NCBI GenBank assembly: GCA_003223645.1
Contig: QHVT01000006.1
Location: forward strand, 62,001-126,000
Direction of reading: 5' to 3'
DNA: 64,000 nucleotides
Source of the DNA: Acidobacteriota bacterium
GTDB lineage: Bacteria > Acidobacteriota > Thermoanaerobaculia > Gp7-AA8
The notes under the pieces: model-generated
Database searches by the model: none
Told to the model about the DNA's origin: nothing
The model's input: the letters and a program-made list of their open reading frames with translations, nothing else
Shown here: positions 28,784-43,176 of the stretch, piece by piece
Numbering within the stretch: the first letter of the stretch is position 1
How the letters are laid out: every line of letters starts with the position of its first letter
Program-made: the position numbers and the translations under genes

Positions 28784-28890
28784 GTCCTATGGTCCTATAG
28801 GTCCTATTCGTCTTATCTGTCCTATTCGTCCTAGGACCTATAGGACAGATAGGACCTATAGGACAGGTAGGACCTTTAGGACCTAGGTCT
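28784..28890. repeat. Palindrome family F between convergent genes
   Basis: Left arm of GTCCTAT-type heptamers (GTCCTATGGTCCTATAGGTC) and right arm of ATAGGAC-type heptamers (TAGGACCTATAGGACAGATA). The centre has CCTAGG. Other members are at 39599-39687 and 47721-47800. Confidence 0.9.
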
Positions 28891-29377
28891 AAGTCGTTGT
28901 TACCCCTAACCGCGCGCGCAACGCGTCGAGGACGGGTGGGGGGACGAGGTGCGAGATGTCGCCGCCGAGGCGGAACACTTCCTTGACCAGTCGCGAGGCG
29001 ACGAACGTGTACTCGACGGACGGAAGCATGAAGATCGTCTCGACGCCGGGGTGCAGCTCGCGATTCATGAGCGCCATCTGCAATTCGTACTCGTAGTCGG
29101 AGACGGCGCGGATGCCGCGCACGACGACGGTCGCATCGAGTCCGCGCATGAAGTCAACGAGGAGTCCGCTGAACGAGCGCACTTCCACGCCGCGCATGCC
29201 GTCCGTGCAGCGCAGGATCAGCTCCATCCGCTCCGGCACCGTGAACAGCGGCGATTTCCCCTCGTTCTCGAGCACCGCGACGACGACGACGTCGAACAGA
29301 TTCGTCGCGCGGCGAATGATGTCGAGGTGGCCGTTCGTCAGCGGATCGAACGAGCCGGGATAGACGGCGATGCGCAT
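28889..29377 (-). CDS. coaD: Phosphopantetheine adenylyltransferase
   Basis: 162 residues, full length. Fourth step of CoA synthesis: adenylation of 4'-phosphopantetheine. The nucleotidyltransferase motif PGSFDPLTNGHLDII (T/HxGH) is at residues 7-21. RGIRAVSDYEYELQMALMNR and the YTFVASRLVKEV segment complete the active site. It stands alone, on the minus strand. Confidence 0.97.
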   Translation of the reverse strand: MRIAVYPGSFDPLTNGHLDIIRRATNLFDVVVVAVLENEGKSPLFTVPERMELILRCTDGMRGVEVRSFSGLLVDFMRGLDATVVVRGIRAVSDYEYELQMALMNRELHPGVETIFMLPSVEYTFVASRLVKEVFRLGGDISHLVPPPVLDALRARLGVTTT

Positions 29378-29398
29378 GCGCGGATGGTAGCAGACGGG

Positions 29399-29486
29399 GC
29401 TCAGGGGCTCACAGGCTCAGGGGCTCATAGCCGAGGCTCAGGGGCGCACAGGCTCAGGGGCTCATAACCACTGTGAGCCCATGAGC
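29399..29486. repeat. Palindrome family A, left half, interrupted by an insertion
   Basis: Units GGGGCTCACAGGCTCAGGGG end at CCCATGAGC, which is repeated at 32876 on the other side of the inserted element. The matching right part is 32876-32915. Confidence 0.8.
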
Positions 29487-29542
29487 GGCTTTGCACACAA
29501 AGTCTACCTTGCACATAAAGTCGTGAGCCTGCACATAAAGTC
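29487..29542. repeat. Left transposon end with three copies of a 13-bp motif
   Basis: TGCACACAAAGTC (29492-29504), TGCACATAAAGTC (29510-29522) and TGCACATAAAGTC (29530-29542) are spaced about 20 bases apart and are likely transposase binding sites. The outermost copy lies in the terminal repeat. Confidence 0.8.
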
Positions 29543-29552
29543 CGCACGGGCC

Positions 29553-29852
29553 CTACGCGTCGCCGATCACCTTCCTGATGGTGGCAGCGGCACGGCGCAA
29601 CAGTTCGCGCTGTTCGTACGAGAACGCGTACGCCCGCTCCCCGAGAATCCAGCCGACGCTTTCTCCGGTCGCGCGCGCGATCCTCATCACGGTATCGAAG
29701 GACGGCTTGTACATGGTTCCCGTCAAGATGCGCGAAAGCGTCGCTGGCGCGATGCCCGCCGCATGCGCGACGGCGCTGTATTTCTTGCCGGTGCGATCGA
29801 CAGCTTCCCGGAGGCGCACCCGCCACTCGTCCGGTTGTTCACTTTTAGACAA
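29553..29852 (-). CDS. XRE-family transcriptional regulator
   Basis: 99 residues from a TTG start 3 bases after the upstream gene's stop. The helix-turn-helix is YSAVAHAAGIAPATLSRILTG at about residues 25-45, followed by the third and fourth helices (PSFDTVMRIARATGESVGWI). The C-terminal AFSYEQRELLRRAAATIRKVIG helix probably dimerises. It is a passenger of the transposon and co-oriented with the small gene at 29856-30077. Likely a repressor of passenger genes (inference). Confidence 0.8.
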   Translation of the reverse strand: MSKSEQPDEWRVRLREAVDRTGKKYSAVAHAAGIAPATLSRILTGTMYKPSFDTVMRIARATGESVGWILGERAYAFSYEQRELLRRAAATIRKVIGDA

Positions 29853-29855
29853 TCG

Positions 29856-30077
29856 CTACCCGTCCTGCCGGTCGTTCGAGAAGGCGTCCACCACTGCATC
29901 GAAGTCTTCCCGCACGGTCACGGTGTCGCCGCTGGCGAAGGTGATGAGCGTTCCCTCTCGATCTCCGAGCGGGTTGTCGGTGAACGTCTGGATGTGCAGG
30001 CCGTTGACGCAGCGCGCCTCGTTCGTTTTCGAGTCGATCAGCACGACGATGGGTACACCCTGAAAGCGAGAGTCCAT
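29856..30077 (-). CDS. Small protein of unknown function in the transposon
   Basis: 73 residues (MDSRFQGVPIVVLIDSKTNE and onward), beta-rich, ending in an acidic helix DFDAVVDAFSNDRQDG. The Met at 30077 is preferred to 30083 because GGGGAGG abuts the latter and is 6 bases from the former. No family recognised. It precedes the XRE gene in a two-gene operon and faces the second XRE gene across a common control region. Confidence 0.6.
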   Translation of the reverse strand: MDSRFQGVPIVVLIDSKTNEARCVNGLHIQTFTDNPLGDREGTLITFASGDTVTVREDFDAVVDAFSNDRQDG

Positions 30078-30129
30078 GACCATCCTCCCCAGCGAACAGC
30101 GCGACGGCGCGAGTTCCTTTTATGTTGGA

Positions 30130-30175
30130 GCGACAGCATACTGTCTGGAAGCGAGCAACACAATAGTGTTCCCTT
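30130..30175. promoter_or_regulatory. Divergent control region with two short dyads
   Basis: ACAGCATACTGT and AACACAATAGTGTT (perfect arms ACAG/CTGT and AACAC/GTGTT) lie between the divergent small gene and XRE gene. Paired small dyads here are likely operators for one or both XRE proteins. Confidence 0.4.
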
Positions 30176-30186
30176 GCTTCCGAGAT

Positions 30187-30405
30187 ATGCCCTCGGACAC
30201 GCAACGGCTTCGCGCCCTCGGAACGAGAGTCCGAGAACTCCGGACGGCGCGCGGGTGGTCGCAAGAAAGACTCGCGGAGGAGTCTTCGATTCACGAGAAT
30301 CATTTGCGCCGGATCGAGGGCGGGACTGCGAATCCGTCCTACCTTGTCCTGCTCAGGATTGCGCGTGCCCTCGAAGTACGGGCGGGGAAGCTCATCGAGG
30401 AGTAG
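30187..30405 (+). CDS. Small XRE-family regulator
   Basis: 72 residues, almost only the DNA-binding domain: LRALGTRVRELRTARGWSQ, ERLAEESSIHENHLRRIEGG, then NPSYLVLLRIARALEV. This is the compact Cro/C1 form found in controllers of mobile elements and restriction systems. The start is the ATG at 30187; frame upstream is the control region. It lies 43 bases before the membrane-protein gene on the same strand. Confidence 0.82.
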   Translation: MPSDTQRLRALGTRVRELRTARGWSQERLAEESSIHENHLRRIEGGTANPSYLVLLRIARALEVRAGKLIEE

Positions 30406-30448
30406 GGTGTTCCGCGCCTATTTTGCCATGGGGAGGTAGGCTGCTTGA

Positions 30449-31276
30449 ATGCGCGTTGCAGCTTCGTCGGGTGCATGGATCGGGGCGGCCTTCACGTTCG
30501 CCGCTTTCGGGATGGGCTTTCTGATGCTCATCTCTCCTATTCCGCACGATATAGCCTTGGGCCTAGCGGTGGTGTTTTTCGTGCTCGCAGGGATCGCCGG
30601 CTATGGAGCATGGGTGGCCCACTACCGGACAGCTCATCCAACGAAGGACGCTTCCGCCGGCGCTCCAATACTTCCCGATGATTCTGCGGCGGTTGCGGCA
30701 CTGCGAGAGCATACGGCGGCTTTGCGGCAAGCTGACTGGCGAGCCAGAAACGCAGAAATTAGACAAAGGGTGTACGGCGTCCGGGCGGATTTGCAAAGCC
30801 GTGTAGCGGAGTTAGAGACCTCTCAGCGCGACCGGGAGCTAAATGGAAAGCAACGGAAAGCGATTATTCACGTCATGTCCGAGTGCATGTCCGAAATCAG
30901 GAAGTGGGAGAAACAGCAGCCGGATTACGACGATGACCCGCAACCCGTCTACATACGGATTACAACGATCGGCACGGAGCGTGAGACGCTGCACTACCGC
31001 GACGAGTTTATTGCGGCATTCAAAGCCAGCGGATTTGACGTCGTACTGGGTGAATGGAACGCAGGCGCGATAGAGCTGGCAACCTGGCGAGGATTTTTAT
31101 CTGTCCTGGAAACCGATCCGCGAAACGTTGTCCAACCTAAAGTGCTTGCAGCTTTGAAGGCCGCAGGGTTACCCGTCCGAGAAGTTGAATTTCCAAGTGG
31201 GCGATACGCACTTGAAAGCCTGTCGTCGGGTGATCCGACAGGGGCCGCTCATTTAGTCGTGGGTCAACGCGAGTGA
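30449..31276 (+). CDS. Two-helix membrane protein with coiled coil, unknown
   Basis: 275 residues. Two adjacent membrane helices (WIGAAFTFAAFGMGFLMLI and IALGLAVVFFVLAGIAGYGAW) are followed by an acidic linker and a coiled coil (about residues 85-140). The C-terminal alpha/beta domain has TLHYRDEFIAAFKASGFDVV, WRGFLSVLE and VVQPKVLAALKAAGLPV. I do not recognise the family; the layout (2 TM, coiled coil, soluble domain) is common among uncharacterised proteins and some membrane effectors of defence systems. It is the only non-regulatory large passenger in the transposon. A GGGGAGG lies about a dozen bases before the ATG. Confidence 0.72.
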   Translation: MRVAASSGAWIGAAFTFAAFGMGFLMLISPIPHDIALGLAVVFFVLAGIAGYGAWVAHYRTAHPTKDASAGAPILPDDSAAVAALREHTAALRQADWRARNAEIRQRVYGVRADLQSRVAELETSQRDRELNGKQRKAIIHVMSECMSEIRKWEKQQPDYDDDPQPVYIRITTIGTERETLHYRDEFIAAFKASGFDVVLGEWNAGAIELATWRGFLSVLETDPRNVVQPKVLAALKAAGLPVREVEFPSGRYALESLSSGDPTGAAHLVVGQRE

Positions 31277-31295
31277 GCGTCACGCTTTGTCTGCG

Positions 31296-31502
31296 TCAAG
31301 TTCGACGCTTCCGGTCCGGTGGCATCGGCAGCGCCCCCGCCGCGCGCAGCGCTAGCTGACGCAGCCACGCGGACAACTCCAGACCCTCGCGAGCGGCAGC
31401 GTTGATGAGCGCTTGTTTCTGATCTGCCGGGATGCGCATGCGGACCACGTCATCTTTGCGTTTCTTTCCCGCCGATGGTCTCGCTGGTTTCTTGTCTTTC
31501 AT
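31296..31502 (-). CDS. Ribbon-helix-helix protein
   Basis: 68 residues. A basic N-terminus (MKDKKPARPSAGKKRKDD) precedes VRMRIPADQKQALINAAA, then REGLELSAWLRQLALRAAG: a beta strand and two helices as in Arc/CopG proteins. The Met at 31502 follows the shared divergent promoter; an upstream frame to 31649 would run through that promoter and is rejected. It probably represses its own gene and the transposase gene. Confidence 0.72.
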   Translation of the reverse strand: MKDKKPARPSAGKKRKDDVVRMRIPADQKQALINAAAREGLELSAWLRQLALRAAGALPMPPDRKRRT

Positions 31503-31514
31503 GGTGATAACAAC

Positions 31515-31589
31515 GTAGCTACAAAATGCTCCTTTGTCAAGTGCGCCGCATCTTGACAAAGTGACACGTTGGAAGTACATTGTAGCTAC
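31515..31589. promoter_or_regulatory. Divergent promoter with nested inverted repeats
   Basis: Rightward: TTGACA (31553-31558), 17 bases, TACATT (31576-31581). Leftward: TTGACA complement (31535-31540 on +), 17 bases, TACGTT. An inner dyad CTTTGTCAAG/CTTGACAAAG covers both -35 boxes and an outer perfect octamer GTAGCTAC sits at both -10 regions (31515-31522, 31582-31589). This is a symmetrical operator that could silence the RHH and transposase genes together. Confidence 0.72.
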
Positions 31590-31609
31590 ATACATCGGAG
31601 GCCATGAAC

Positions 31610-32851
31610 ATGGAACCGCGTCAGGAAAAAGGACTTCAGATCGCAGCAACGCTCAGGATTCAGACGAAGGGCGAGGCGTGGATCGTGCCGTCGCAAACGC
31701 TAAGCGGAAAGTACACCGTGACGCGCAGCGAGGACACGTTCCATTGCACCTGCCCGGACTTTGAACTGCGTCGAACGATCTGCAAACACGGCTATGCCGT
31801 TGAGTTCTTTTTGAAACGCGAAACCATGACCACACCCGACGGTGAAACGACCATCACAGAGACGCGCGCGATGCGCGTTACCTACTCGCAGGACTGGCCC
31901 GCGTACAACGCGGCGCAGTGCGCGGAGAAAGAGTTGTTTCTCCACCTGCTCCGCGATCTCTGCTCTGCCGTTCCCGAGCCGGTGCGCAGCATCGGCCGTC
32001 CCTCGATTCCGATCTCTGACGCGCTGTTCTCCGCGTGCTTCAAACTCTACAGCGGCATGAGCGCGCGTCGCTTCATGTCCGACCTCCGCGATGCGGCAGA
32101 GAAAGGATTCATCGGCAAGGCGTGGCACTTCAACAGCGTCCTCGGCGTCATCGAAGACCCGACCATCGAACCAATTCTGCACGCTCTGATCGCGGCATCG
32201 GCCGCGCCTCTTGCGTCCGTGGAAAGCACGTTCGCCGTGGACTCCACCGGCTTCGGAACTCAGTGCTACTACCGACACTTCACCGCGAAGTACGGGCAGG
32301 AACAGACGTTCCGCAACTACGTGAAGTTGCACGCGCTCGTGGGAACGAAAACGAACGTTATTGCTCGCGCAACGGTGACCGATCGCGACCGGCACGACTC
32401 GACGCAGTTCATTCCGCTCATCGAGGACGGAGCGAAGACGTTCACCATGACCGAGATTTCGGCGGACAAAGCCTACTCAGGACGCGCCAACGTCACGGCA
32501 GTGACGGCACTCGGCGCGGAGCCGTTCATCCCGTTCAAGTCGAACGCGATCGATGACAAGAAGTGCCCCGCGTGGAGCAAGCTGTTCCACCTGTACAACT
32601 ACCGCGTGGATGAGTTCCTGCCGCACTACCACCAGCGCAGCAACTCGGAGAGCACGTTCTCGATGATGAAGCGCGTGTTCACGGACACGATCCGGAGCAA
32701 GGGCTTCGACGCGCAGCGAAACGAGGTTCTGTTGCTCGTCATCGCGCACAACATCCGCACGCTGGTACACTCGATCTTTGAGCTAGGCGTGACGGTGCCG
32801 GGACTTTCAACCTGCACACAAAGTGCGCTGGCTGCACATAATGTCGGCTAG
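31610..32851 (+). CDS. DDE transposase with N-terminal SWIM zinc finger
   Basis: 413 residues. Residues about 40-65 hold the SWIM motif FHCTCPDFELRRTICKHGYA (CxC, then CxH), probably used for DNA binding. The catalytic core has Asp in FAVDSTGF, Asp in EISADKAYSG and Glu in RSNSESTFSMMKR, the DDE triad of IS4/IS1182-like transposases. The Met at 31610 is preferred over 31604 because GGAGG ends 2 bases before the latter and 8 before the former. The stop lies just inside the right end, which encodes its last residues. Confidence 0.88.
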   Translation: MEPRQEKGLQIAATLRIQTKGEAWIVPSQTLSGKYTVTRSEDTFHCTCPDFELRRTICKHGYAVEFFLKRETMTTPDGETTITETRAMRVTYSQDWPAYNAAQCAEKELFLHLLRDLCSAVPEPVRSIGRPSIPISDALFSACFKLYSGMSARRFMSDLRDAAEKGFIGKAWHFNSVLGVIEDPTIEPILHALIAASAAPLASVESTFAVDSTGFGTQCYYRHFTAKYGQEQTFRNYVKLHALVGTKTNVIARATVTDRDRHDSTQFIPLIEDGAKTFTMTEISADKAYSGRANVTAVTALGAEPFIPFKSNAIDDKKCPAWSKLFHLYNYRVDEFLPHYHQRSNSESTFSMMKRVFTDTIRSKGFDAQRNEVLLLVIAHNIRTLVHSIFELGVTVPGLSTCTQSALAAHNVG

Positions 32852-32875
32852 AAACGGGACTTTATGTGCAAAGCC
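32811..32875. repeat. Right transposon end with motif copies
   Basis: TGCACACAAAGTG (32812) and TGCACATAATGTC (32833-32845) run in the direct sense and GACTTTATGTGCA (32858-32870) is inverted and terminal. They match the left-end 13-bp motif. Confidence 0.75.
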
Positions 32876-32915
32876 CCCATGAGCCTATGCGCCCATGAGC
32901 CTATGCGCGCCTCGT
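32876..32915. repeat. Palindrome family A, right half
   Basis: CCCATGAGCCTATGCGCC with a second CCATGAGCCTATGCG, the complement of the units at 29399-29486. The two halves were joined before transposon insertion. Confidence 0.75.
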
Positions 32916-32957
32916 CCAGAAGCGAGTTGCGCGGGACTACAACGTCCCGCGCAATTC

Positions 32958-33854
32958 TCACTCTTGCGAATCGGAAGTGGTTTGCTGCGGTGCCGGCGGC
33001 GCGGGTGGAGGCGCGATCGGCTGATGTCCGTTCGGTTGCGGCTGCTGCGCGGGCTGCTGATGCGCGGCGCCGGGGTACTGCATCAAACCGAGCGAATACG
33101 CCGTCGCGTAGTCGGGACGCGGCGGCTGGCCCGGCGGAATGTAGAGCGTCGAGATCGCCGACACGCCGGAGTAGGGGAGCATGATCAGCGACGTCGGACG
33201 GATCACCGGCTCCACGCCGGGGAACAGCGGCGCCTCGTACACATACGCGACGTGATACGGGCTGTAATACTGGAAGAGCTTCTGCAGAAGCTGCGGCCAC
33301 CCTTTCGTGTCGTACGCGACCTTCTTGAACGTGGCGTCGCCGAGGACGCCGATCTGCCAGAGGATGACGTGACTCGACGGATCGATCATGCGGCCGTTGA
33401 TCAGAAAATCGGTGGCCTCGTACGACTGGCATCCGGACATCGCCGGATCGATGTTCATGTCGGCGAACAAACAATCCTCGGCCGACACGCCGGGGAGCAT
33501 GCGCGCCTTGAATCCCTCGGCCTTCGCGCGCCGCACGGACTCGTGCGTCGGATACGCGAACACGCCGGGATGTCCGTATGCGGCGAAGCAGACGCGCTTG
33601 CCTTCGCGGACATAGCCGAGAACTTTCTCGATCATCTCGTTGTAGGTGTCGATGCGCTGCTTATTCTCGGCGTAGAGCTGATACATCGACTCCGCGCCTT
33701 CGGGATTCAGCGTCTTGATCAGGTTCTCCGCGATCGGATCGCTGACGATGTACACGACCTTGTCGGCCTTCTTGATCCAGGCGATCGACTCGGTCGTCAT
33801 CTGGCCGATCGTGCGGATGCCGGTGCCGATGACGACGAGTTGTTCGTCATGCAT
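32958..33854 (-). CDS. Borosin-type peptide alpha-N-methyltransferase (split type)
   Basis: 298 residues. SAM-dependent methylation of backbone amides of a partner peptide. It resembles the fungal OphMA catalytic domain closely: VVIGTGIRTIGQMTTESIA at 7-25, YAENKQRIDTYNEM at 61-74 with the catalytic Arg67/Tyr71 spacing, FAAYGHPGVFAYPTHES at 90-106, ARMLPGVSAED at 117-127, GCQSYEATDFL at 141-151 and ILWQIGV. Unlike the fungal enzyme no core peptide is fused; the C-terminus is a Pro/Gln-rich tail (PAQQPQPNGHQPIAPPPAP). The start at 33854 overlaps the precursor gene stop by 8 bases, so expression is coupled. Exact regiochemistry and iteration number cannot be read. Confidence 0.88.
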   Translation of the reverse strand: MHDEQLVVIGTGIRTIGQMTTESIAWIKKADKVVYIVSDPIAENLIKTLNPEGAESMYQLYAENKQRIDTYNEMIEKVLGYVREGKRVCFAAYGHPGVFAYPTHESVRRAKAEGFKARMLPGVSAEDCLFADMNIDPAMSGCQSYEATDFLINGRMIDPSSHVILWQIGVLGDATFKKVAYDTKGWPQLLQKLFQYYSPYHVAYVYEAPLFPGVEPVIRPTSLIMLPYSGVSAISTLYIPPGQPPRPDYATAYSLGLMQYPGAAHQQPAQQPQPNGHQPIAPPPAPPAPQQTTSDSQE

Positions 33855-34239
33855 AGCGACCCCCTCCCGCGTAACAGAGATAGTACGTCGGCGGATATTG
33901 CTGCTGCTGCTGCTGCGGATACTGCTGCGGATACTGCTGAGGATATTGCGGCTGCTGCGGATATTGCGGCTGCGGCGGCTGGGGTTGGGGCTGCGGCGGC
34001 GCGGCGGCGGCGTTCTTGTCCGCATCGGTCTGCGTCATCGAGATGCCGCCGAGCGCGACGTAGATGCGTCCCTGGTCGCCGGAGAACAGCGCTTCTTTTT
34101 CTTCGTCGCTCAACCCCGCGGCGTCGGCGGCGGCTTTCGGATCGGCAATGAAATCTCCGAGGCGATCGACGTTGCCGGCCAGTTCGGTCATGAACTGCTT
34201 CAATGCATTCGGAACATCACCCTTCACACCTTCATCCAT
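33847..34239 (-). CDS. Candidate borosin precursor peptide
   Basis: 130 residues. Residues 10-65 form a helical domain (NALKQFMTELAGNVDRLGDF, then DPKAAADAAGLSDEEKEALF) like the borosin-binding domain of split systems. Residues 80-115 are a Pro/Gln/Tyr linker of YPQQ repeats, and the end (PPTYYLCYAGGGRYA) is the probable core. Ribosome site AAGGAG lies 9 bases before the ATG at 34239. The stop overlaps the methyltransferase start. Assignment rests on neighbourhood and domain shape; which residues are methylated is unknown. Confidence 0.78.
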   Translation of the reverse strand: MDEGVKGDVPNALKQFMTELAGNVDRLGDFIADPKAAADAAGLSDEEKEALFSGDQGRIYVALGGISMTQTDADKNAAAAPPQPQPQPPQPQYPQQPQYPQQYPQQYPQQQQQQYPPTYYLCYAGGGRYA

Positions 34240-34322
34240 TCCGCGGTCTCCTTTCTGAGACGTGAGTCGAAGGGAAGAGCCCGGATGGGCCCTTCCCTTC
34301 ATCGACTACGCGTAAGTATGGA

Positions 34323-35096
34323 TCAACCGAAGAACGGGAAATGGATCTGCGGTGCAACCACGACCTGCGGGAAGACCTGTGGGAAGACCTGCGGATGCAC
34401 GACCACCTGCGGCGGTGTGAACAGCGGATGAATCTGCGGTGCGATGACCACCTGCGGCGGCGTGAACAGCGGATGAATCTGCGGCGCCACGACGAGGTTG
34501 GGGAAGAGCGTGAACGCACCGACCTGTCCTTGTGCCTGAGCCGGTCCGGGCGCAACCATCATCGGCTGCGGTCCGGGGAACGCAAAGATCTGCGGCACCT
34601 GGATGATCGGCTGCACCATTTGGAACACGAGCTGTGGCGGCGGCAGCGTGTGCACCACCGGCGGCGGAAACGTTTGGATCGTCGGGCCTTGGTGGATGAG
34701 CATCGGCGGCGGAGGGAAGGTGTGGAACGTCGGTGGCGGGAACGTGAAGTGAACCACCGGCGGTGGCGGGAACGTATGCAGCATCGGTGGCGGGAACGTG
34801 ACCGTCGGCGGGAACGTGAAGTGAACGACGGGCGGCGGAGGGAACGTATGCAGCATCGGTGGCGGGAACGTGACCGTCGGCGGGAACGTGAAGTGGACCA
34901 CCGGCGGCGGCGGGAACGTGTGGAACGTCGGTGGCGGGAAGGTCGGGCCACCTCCGCCTGCAGTTGGGGGAAACGTCAGCGGGCCGGTTGGAGGAAACGT
35001 CTGGGGAGGAAACGTCTGCGGGGGAAACGTCTGGGGAGGAAACGTCTGCGGGGGAAACGTTTGCTGCATCGGAAACGTTGGCTGCATCGGAAACAT
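34323..35096 (-). CDS. Phe/Pro/Val-rich repeat protein in the borosin operon
   Basis: 257 residues with almost no charged residues. Order: MFPMQPTFPMQQ, five TFPPQ repeats, about three HTFPPPPVVHFTFPP-type units of 24 residues with TVTFPPPML, then VVIAPQIHPLFTPPQ repeats, ending FPFFG. It has a strong ribosome site AAGGAGG 5 bases before the ATG, no signal peptide and no leader-like domain. It lies 83 bases upstream of the borosin precursor on the same strand, so probably in one transcript. It could be a substrate, a scaffold or a structural protein; no family recognised. Confidence 0.72.
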   Translation of the reverse strand: MFPMQPTFPMQQTFPPQTFPPQTFPPQTFPPQTFPPTGPLTFPPTAGGGGPTFPPPTFHTFPPPPVVHFTFPPTVTFPPPMLHTFPPPPVVHFTFPPTVTFPPPMLHTFPPPPVVHFTFPPPTFHTFPPPPMLIHQGPTIQTFPPPVVHTLPPPQLVFQMVQPIIQVPQIFAFPGPQPMMVAPGPAQAQGQVGAFTLFPNLVVAPQIHPLFTPPQVVIAPQIHPLFTPPQVVVHPQVFPQVFPQVVVAPQIHFPFFG

Positions 35097-35266
35097 AGAG
35101 GCCTCCTTATTCTCTCGGGGGTCGGAATTGTAGCAGCTATTATCGCCAGAAAGAACAGCTTACCTATTTAACCGGTATCCAGACGGCGATTCCATCACTT
35201 GGTCAACTGCTTGACGATCAGGCGATCCGCACTTATGATGTTGTCAATTCGAGTCGGGAGGGTGTG

Positions 35267-35659
35267 ATGACGCGGGATCGACTTCAAGTCAAACGCTCGA
35301 ATGGGCCGGCGCTCAAGAACCGGCTGATCTCCACGCTGCTCACTTACCTGCCGGGTGCGTGGATCGATCCGAAAGACCACGAGCTCGTCGCGCTCTATCG
35401 CCTTCGCTACAAGATGGCGATGGAGGAACAGAAGTACGACACGGCGATGATCTTCCTCAACAAGATCCTCGAGCTCGACCCGATGAATCTCGAGGCCAAG
35501 CTCTGCAAGGGCGAGATCTATCACCGCTGCCTCGGCGATTACCCCGCCGCGATCGACCAGTACAACAAGGTGATCCGCCTCTCCGCGAACGGCAATGACC
35601 AGGCCGTCAACACGCGCGCGCGCGCCGCGATGTCGGAGATCATGGAGATGCTGTCCTGA
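35267..35659 (+). CDS. TPR-repeat protein
   Basis: 130 residues. Two or three tetratricopeptide repeats: YDTAMIFLNKILELDPMNLEA and GDYPAAIDQYNKVIRLSANG. The ATG at 35267 is chosen because GGGAGG lies 5 bases upstream; the adjoining GTG at 35264 is too close. A short protein-interaction adaptor with no other domain; divergent from the borosin operon across 170 bases with no recognisable gene. Confidence 0.82.
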   Translation: MTRDRLQVKRSNGPALKNRLISTLLTYLPGAWIDPKDHELVALYRLRYKMAMEEQKYDTAMIFLNKILELDPMNLEAKLCKGEIYHRCLGDYPAAIDQYNKVIRLSANGNDQAVNTRARAAMSEIMEMLS

Positions 35660-35733
35660 CGGTTACGCGGTTGCGCAGTCACGCGGTTGCAACGGCCGCT
35701 CCGCGTAACCGCGCGACTGCGTGACCGCGCAAC
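35660..35733. repeat. Palindrome family B
   Basis: GGTTACGCGGTTGCGCAGTC and GACTGCGTGACCGCGCAACC around GCAACGGCCGC. It directly follows the TPR gene stop. Confidence 0.85.
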
Positions 35734-35757
35734 CGACTCACCGGTCCCTCGTGAGAA

Positions 35758-42831: not shown

Positions 42832-42881
42832 GGTTGGTTCGACGTTCAGTTACCACATTTGGTGGGATCGATGAGCTCGCG

Positions 42882-43152
42882 GAAGTCAAATTGACATCGC
42901 GGAAAGCATCGATCCATTCGCCGAAGTCAAATTGACATCGCGGAAAGCATCGATCCATTCGCCGAAATCAAATTGACATCGCGGAAAGCATCGATCCATT
43001 CGCCGAAATCAAATTGACATCGCGGAAAGCATCGATCCATTCGCCGAAATCAAATTGACATCGCGGAAAGGATCGATCCATTCGCCGAAGTCAAATTGAC
43101 ATCGCGGAAAGCAAATTGACATCGCCGAAAGCAAATTGACATCGCCGAAAGC
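42882..43152. repeat. Tandem array of 41-bp units ending in 20-bp units
   Basis: Five full 41-base units at 42882, 42923, 42964, 43005 and 43046, nearly identical, starting GAAGTCAAATTGACATCGCG and ending CATCGATCCATTCGCC. A truncated sixth unit leads into three 20-base units AAATTGACATCGCGGAAAGC (43093, 43113, 43133). Each unit carries TTGACA and ATCGAT. The 450-base space between pckA and lptFG has no gene. Confidence 0.92.
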
Positions 43153-43176
43153 ACCGAAGCATTCCGGCTAACTTAC

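Follow-up and report, generated by a model that had tools for sequence, protein, structure and literature searches.

A candidate three-protein split borosin locus in an acidobacterium, with a separate repeat protein as the proposed main substrate

Organization of the locus

The window analyzed here, a 64-kb stretch of DNA from an Acidobacteriota bacterium, holds a cassette of three genes read from the same strand, lying within an insertion and next to a transposase gene. The features on which the argument turns are the following.

29395..35255, no strand: insertion of roughly 5.8 kb that carries the cassette, with coaD on one side and a TPR gene on the other (blastn synteny)
31604..32851, + strand: DDE transposase with a SWIM zinc finger, beside the cassette (Pfam DDE_Tnp_1 1.5e-22, SWIM 9.7e-6)
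32958..33854, − strand: P0001, borosin alpha-N-methyltransferase, 298 aa (Pfam, PDB phmmer, tree)
33847..34239, − strand: P0002, borosin-binding domain (BBD) protein, 130 aa, docking partner and possible precursor (sequence, AlphaFold, Foldseek)
33850..33897, − strand: YPPTYYLCYAGGGRYA, residues 115-130 at the C-terminus of P0002, the candidate core if P0002 is read as the precursor (sequence)
34054..34206, − strand: five-helix BBD, P0002 residues 12-62 (AlphaFold, Foldseek)
34265..34307, − strand: strong hairpin between P0003 and P0002, without a U-run (MFE -41.3 kcal/mol, z -5.2)
34323..35096, − strand: P0003, a 257-aa uncharged Pro/Phe/Thr/Val/Gln repeat protein, the proposed main substrate
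35102..35108, − strand: strong Shine-Dalgarno sequence AAGGAGG, 5 nt before the P0003 ATG

The earlier note on this DNA had described a 298-residue enzyme and a 130-residue neighbor, and both reading frames were recovered on the − strand (33854..32958 and 34239..33847), together with the 8-base overlap of the P0002 stop codon and the P0001 start (33847-33854). A Shine-Dalgarno-like AAAGGAGA precedes the P0002 ATG at 34239. The third gene, P0003, is the ORF directly upstream of P0002 in the same operon and lies outside the segment that the earlier note covered.

The methyltransferase

P0001 is a member of the borosin alpha-N-methyltransferase family. Its sole Pfam domain is TP_methylase (1.1e-19), and a phmmer search of solved structures returned borosin N-methyltransferases only: dbOphM (1.2e-61), OphA (1.4e-58), SonM (6.7e-55) and MroMA (2.5e-47). 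The TP_methylase fold is common to P0001 and to small-molecule methylases of the precorrin/diphthine or YabN type, but a function of that kind, in place of peptide methylation, is exceedingly improbable: the NCBIfam corrin and YabN models all scored far under their cut-offs (the best at 45.9 versus 525 bits), matches to borosin structures range from 1e-47 to 1e-61, and a BBD partner gene adjoins that of the enzyme. On the first two of these grounds a corrin/YabN function was rejected. Thus, the family proposed in the earlier note holds, its kinship to borosin structures exceeding that to corrin methylases, and the tetrapyrrole-methylase profile check that the note had called for yielded no better corrin or diphthine match.

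The borosin motifs read from the sequence at the outset are in place (YGHPGVF at 93-99, MLPGVSAEDC at 119-128, GCQSYEAT at 141-148), as are the catalytic and clamp residues Y58, Y61, R67, Y71 and Y93, with Arg67 and Tyr71, both singled out earlier, aligning with dbOphM. The key residues of SonM include Y58, R67 and Y71 (PMC8429565), all three also being found in P0001; those of OphMA are R72 and Y76. Ten acidobacterial homologues show no variation at R67, Y71 and most motif residues, and R67 and Y71 are likewise invariant in a cross-phylum set. The Pro/Gln-rich tail that had been pointed out spans residues about 258-298; it is missing from a 75%-identical relative in a Chloroflexota MAG (locus L031), and a comparison with P0003 gave no signal of homology (z -0.4). 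An AlphaFold model of P0001, built from 7 sequences, was mediocre (pLDDT 69) and was left unused.

The borosin-binding domain protein

P0002 carries a genuine BBD with the SonA fold. In its AlphaFold model five helices span residues 12-62 (pLDDT >90), the chain after residue 62 being low-confidence and unstructured. The best Foldseek matches are to the SonA BBD (rmsd 0.9-1.1 A, probability 1.00), with further ones to OphA/dbOphMA/MroMA chains and to LigA; the Pfam LigA match is under the gathering score. The assignment stands because the sequence match to the SonA BBD (0.001), the predicted helices and the Foldseek fold match all bear on it, and with it stands the helical binding domain that the earlier note had ascribed to this protein. 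The predicted interface with the enzyme, which the note had likewise asked for, was approached through the agreement in fold between this BBD and that of SonA. A search of the window's own genome found no other BBD. Beyond the domain, the YPQQ linker noticed earlier is indeed there, as a Pro/Gln linker holding four YPQQ units.

The BBD of the SonM/SonA pair docks the precursor, whose core lies in the active-site channel (PMC8429565). This type IV system of Shewanella oneidensis is like that of the window in that the methyltransferase and the BBD protein are separate and the BBD folds agree within ~1 A. SonA, however, joins a linker of 8 residues to a core of 10, whereas the Pro/Gln linker of P0002 runs to roughly 50 residues, and, unlike SonM/SonA, the window has a third gene, that of the 257-aa repeat protein, and a Pro/Gln tail on the enzyme. 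The fungal fused enzymes OphMA/dbOphMA are the best sequence matches of P0001 (1e-58 to 1e-61), but in these enzymes the clasp and the core belong to a single chain, unlike in the window.

The repeat protein

P0003 is a genuine gene, coded in repeats and with the look of one that is translated. The protein is composed of TFPP, FTFPP and VVHPQ repeats and is devoid of D, E, K, R, S, C, W and Y. Differences among its repeat units are distributed over the codon positions as 93/52/290, that is, mostly at third positions, as expected for a protein under selection. There is no second proline-rich repeat ORF in the six frames of the 64-kb window and no second P0003 match in the window's genome. The possibility of a chance ORF was rejected given the AAGGAGG site, the codon-position pattern and its being the sole such ORF in the window.

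The hairpin between P0003 and P0002 may set the expression ratio of P0003 to the BBD protein. An analogous intercistronic hairpin is present in a related alphaproteobacterial locus, L146 (-48.9 kcal/mol, z -3.2). No Rfam families were found in 32800-35400.

Related loci in other bacteria

An alignment scan of genome contigs yielded 79 loci, most of them with an adjacent BBD protein; a scan with P0001 as a single protein gave no match. The methyltransferase tree places the window and L031 as a pair (~75% identity, support 100/99) inside a well-supported group of 20 rows from seven phyla. Searches for more members found only the known ones, both in the order to which the Nitrosomonas MAG belongs and in the class of the Chloroflexota MAG; plasmid records held distant homologues only (37-44% identity).

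Within the group of 20 rows, a repeat ORF, a BBD gene and a methyltransferase gene recur together, and a fusion of BBD and repeats exists. The order in the window, namely, repeat gene, BBD gene, enzyme gene, is also that of the Nitrosomonas MAG locus L039, where the repeat protein is MFPPQM(IPPQFT)n, and of L146, where a MIPPQTFPPQIFPPQV... repeat ORF is followed by a 130-aa BBD protein and the enzyme; the two loci fall next to each other in a second tree. L031 has an FPQFPM-type repeat ORF upstream of the enzyme, which is cut short by the contig end and does not align to P0003. In L147, the BBD is fused to P0003-like FPQVHPQIWPQVHPQVVVHPQ repeats. Against order-1 Markov sequences, P0003 scored 391 versus 273 +/- 27 with the L146 repeat (0/200 reach the score), and the comparisons with the L147 repeats (18/200) and the L039 repeat (79/200) were not significant, all of these similarities being of low complexity and weak evidence of homology.

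In the loci with a separate repeat gene (L037, L038, L039, L146), the BBD protein lacks a repeat tail, and in L037, L038 and L034 it has no core-like tail. It is nearly tail-less in L034, L035 and L149, where a repeat gene is not nearby, and a search of those three genomes with the L147 repeats as query found no such repeats elsewhere.

These observations bear on the main rival to a three-protein reading, the classical type IV (class 3) arrangement in which P0002 is the precursor, with its core in YPPTYYLCYAGGGRYA or the YPQQ repeats, and P0003 is unrelated or acts downstream. The BBD protein is, as in split borosins of that class, encoded separately and adjoins the enzyme gene; its BBD is fused to a tail ending in aromatics, which is the SonA layout, repeat cores are BBD-fused in L032/L033, L147, L058/L059 and one Aquisphaera locus, and hydrophobic segments occupy distal positions in the BBD proteins of L031 and L040. 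Nevertheless, the tails of P0002 and of the L031 BBD protein are not alignable although these are sister loci, the BBD proteins of L037, L038 and L034 offer no tail in which a core could lie, those of L039 and L146 have a conserved segment (SDPVVAQWFMNYYSQLLMW / SDPRVALWLQNHYYQSLMTW) instead of repeats, and the separate repeat gene recurs across loci. Thus, we consider this arrangement possible but rather unlikely. The earlier note had inferred this precursor role for the neighbor, in which the Tyr/Gly-rich end would be the candidate core: the BBD is true, and although YPPTYYLCYAGGGRYA shares its polypeptide with the BBD, the comparisons favor the separate P0003 as the bearer of the core.

Other loci show further arrangements of the domain. 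In L041 and L106, BBD-methyltransferase fusions lie next to a separate BBD-less protein, which in L041 ends in NIPVVVVIIG. Comparisons of this kind suggest that in this clade the BBD can be carried by an adaptor, a second enzyme or the methyltransferase, with the co-encoded repeat protein as the likelier substrate.

Several additional features of the collection are recorded here. A coiled-coil protein with C-terminal GGGNIPVVVVIIG (L041:4345-5757) immediately precedes the BBD-methyltransferase fusion of that locus. L025, L106 and L108 contain three genes for borosin methyltransferases, of which one bears an N-terminal BBD, and a separate (GLSAAKAAPDAGLSAAKLSPDG)n protein; near-identical loci are assigned to MAGs of both Acidobacteria and Planctomycetota, so that one may be a binning error. 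The myxococcal loci L045, L049, L058 and L059 have long VVYAAG / MVYGAG / MVYAAQ / AIYASHP repeat cores, which are fused to a BBD in L058 and L059; in L045 and L049 the contig end truncates them. The BBD proteins of L024, L074, L092 and L021:15674-16273 have Lys/Ala-rich tails (KKKTAKKK, AIKAKTA repeats), strongly unlike hydrophobic borosin cores.

Arginine methyltransferase genes in related loci

A gene for a protein arginine methyltransferase (PRMT) is present in 5 of about 94 loci scanned (L037, L038, L083, L094 and L098). In L037 and L038, the BBD forms the C-terminus of a class I PRMT-like protein (1.8e-41 to PRMT6 for L037), and the repeat proteins are built of YDPYG and FPIRPP units. 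These PRMT-BBD fusions (L037:4754-5986, L038:4796-5986) have double-E (SEWMG..DENM) and THW motifs, and their genes sit between the repeat-protein gene and the borosin methyltransferase gene. In L083, L094 and L098, from Bryobacterales and related Acidobacteria, the PRMT gene precedes the enzyme gene and a divergent subtilase has a (PTRPTFPTRPT)n tail; no BBD was detected in the Bryobacterales PRMT loci, the repeat there being the tail of the divergent subtilase. The subtilases of these three loci (L083:1865-4456, − strand, for the first) are transcribed divergently from the PRMT/borosin-methyltransferase pair, and their tails comprise (PTRPTFPTRPTLPTRPTW)n and YDPYG, the latter units being similar to those of the L037/L038 repeat proteins.

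Among the repeat loci examined, Arg-rich repeats occur only in the five with a PRMT, where Arg is followed by Pro in 137 of 142 cases (30/30, 13/18, 32/32, 31/31, 31/31), a pattern drawn from two lineages. The repeats of loci that have no PRMT contain 0 Arg (the window, L039, L031, L147) or 1 (L146); the tails of L033 and L152 have 5 and 2. Such co-occurrence of PRMT and Arg-Pro would be expected of repeat proteins that serve as substrates for the methyltransferases encoded beside them. In a literature search for borosins named together with arginine methyltransferases, the only match concerned fungal KEX2-processed repeat proteins.

A three-protein reading of the cassette

Taken together, gene order, the BBD/repeat fusion, the tail-less BBD proteins and the covariation of PRMT and Arg argue for P0003 as the substrate. 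Thus, we propose, with a probability of roughly 0.6, that the cassette is a three-protein split borosin in which P0002 docks P0001 and the separate P0003 is the main putative substrate. On the opposite side, the distal Tyr-rich end of P0002 could be a core. A scheme in which P0002 and P0003 are both substrates, with roughly equal weight, would fit the presence of both genes in the operon and the varied cores that bacterial borosin enzymes accept (review PMC11285071), but it shares the weaknesses of P0002 as a substrate, and we regard it as quite improbable.

What we infer for the reading with P0003 as main substrate is the binding step, the methylation and where it falls, and how the product is exported or used. 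P0002 would bind P0001 via its BBD and serve as a docking adaptor, and P0001, with SAM, would methylate backbone amides at many non-proline residues in the P0003 repeats, the target units being T-F-P-P-Q, V-V-H-P-Q and similar ones. Recruitment of P0003 would perhaps rely on Pro/Gln-rich stretches in P0002, in the P0001 tail and in P0003 itself. The predicted product is an uncharged polypeptide with many tertiary backbone amides (proline or N-methyl), which would be a poor hydrogen-bond donor and protease-resistant. The Tyr-rich end of P0002 may be a second, minor substrate, and the intercistronic hairpin could hold P0003 in excess over the P0001/P0002 pair.

According to PMC11395268 (Fig. 1 legend), class 2 borosins have the BBD on the methyltransferase and the core on a separate BBD-less protein, whereas in class 4 the methyltransferase and the core are separate and the BBD was not identified. 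As proposed for P0003, the core would be on a BBD-less protein in both of these classes; unlike class 2 as described there, BBD, enzyme and putative core in the window are three polypeptides, and unlike class 4, the operon encodes a BBD protein. With its BBD on the stand-alone P0002, the window lies outside both classes. The three-polypeptide split is not among the classes 1-4 listed in PMC11395268, the comparison having covered PMC8429565, PMC11395268 and PMC11285071 only.

RiPP enzymes normally find their substrate via a leader on the same chain. If the BBD is supplied in trans, substrate recognition would be separate from the modified chain, and this would open a route to the N-methylation of arbitrary long repeat polymers, which is sought in practice for both peptide drugs and materials. 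More generally, it is an even bet that there is a tripartite kind of borosin, in which a stand-alone BBD adaptor (elsewhere a PRMT-BBD) recruits the backbone N-methyltransferase to repeat proteins that are long, rich in proline and free of a BBD, yielding ribosomally made, heavily N-methylated, peptoid-like polymers, which in some relatives would also be arginine-methylated. Judging by the PRMT-BBD fusions, the BBD may serve generally as a docking module with which multi-enzyme methylation complexes are assembled on one substrate.

Origin of the cassette

In one genome of the same genus and three of the same family, coaD (28889-29377 in the window) and the TPR gene (35264-35659) adjoin, and the window therefore carries an insertion. 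Among the 149 genomes of the class that were searched, the one other member of the genus has no such enzyme, and within the family the sole match is a distant TP-methylase (3.5e-26) of a kind that is also present elsewhere in the window's genome. The insertion, the enzyme-poor relatives and the methyltransferase tree indicate horizontal acquisition of the three-gene operon, the host being a soil-type bacterium. The segment 29487-32875 is probably a mobile element beside the cassette: 18-bp inverted repeats (94%; 29487-29504 / 32858-32875) enclose the DDE/SWIM transposase gene. The same segment also holds two HTH genes and a 275-aa ORF of no known family.

The second TP-methylase of the window's genome (G000:C36:67035-67628; L029:7006-7830) is 28% identical and has a DGHPMVF motif; against NCBIfam it reached the cut-off of no model. 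A similarly distant TP-methylase match is found in the same-family genome G401. Between the TPR gene and a polyprenyl synthetase gene, window positions 35660-35744 match dozens of places in the same-family genome G029 at 70-97%; the segment is a dispersed repeat. Farther along, window positions 42877-43164 comprise a 41-bp unit in seven tandem copies (91% matches).
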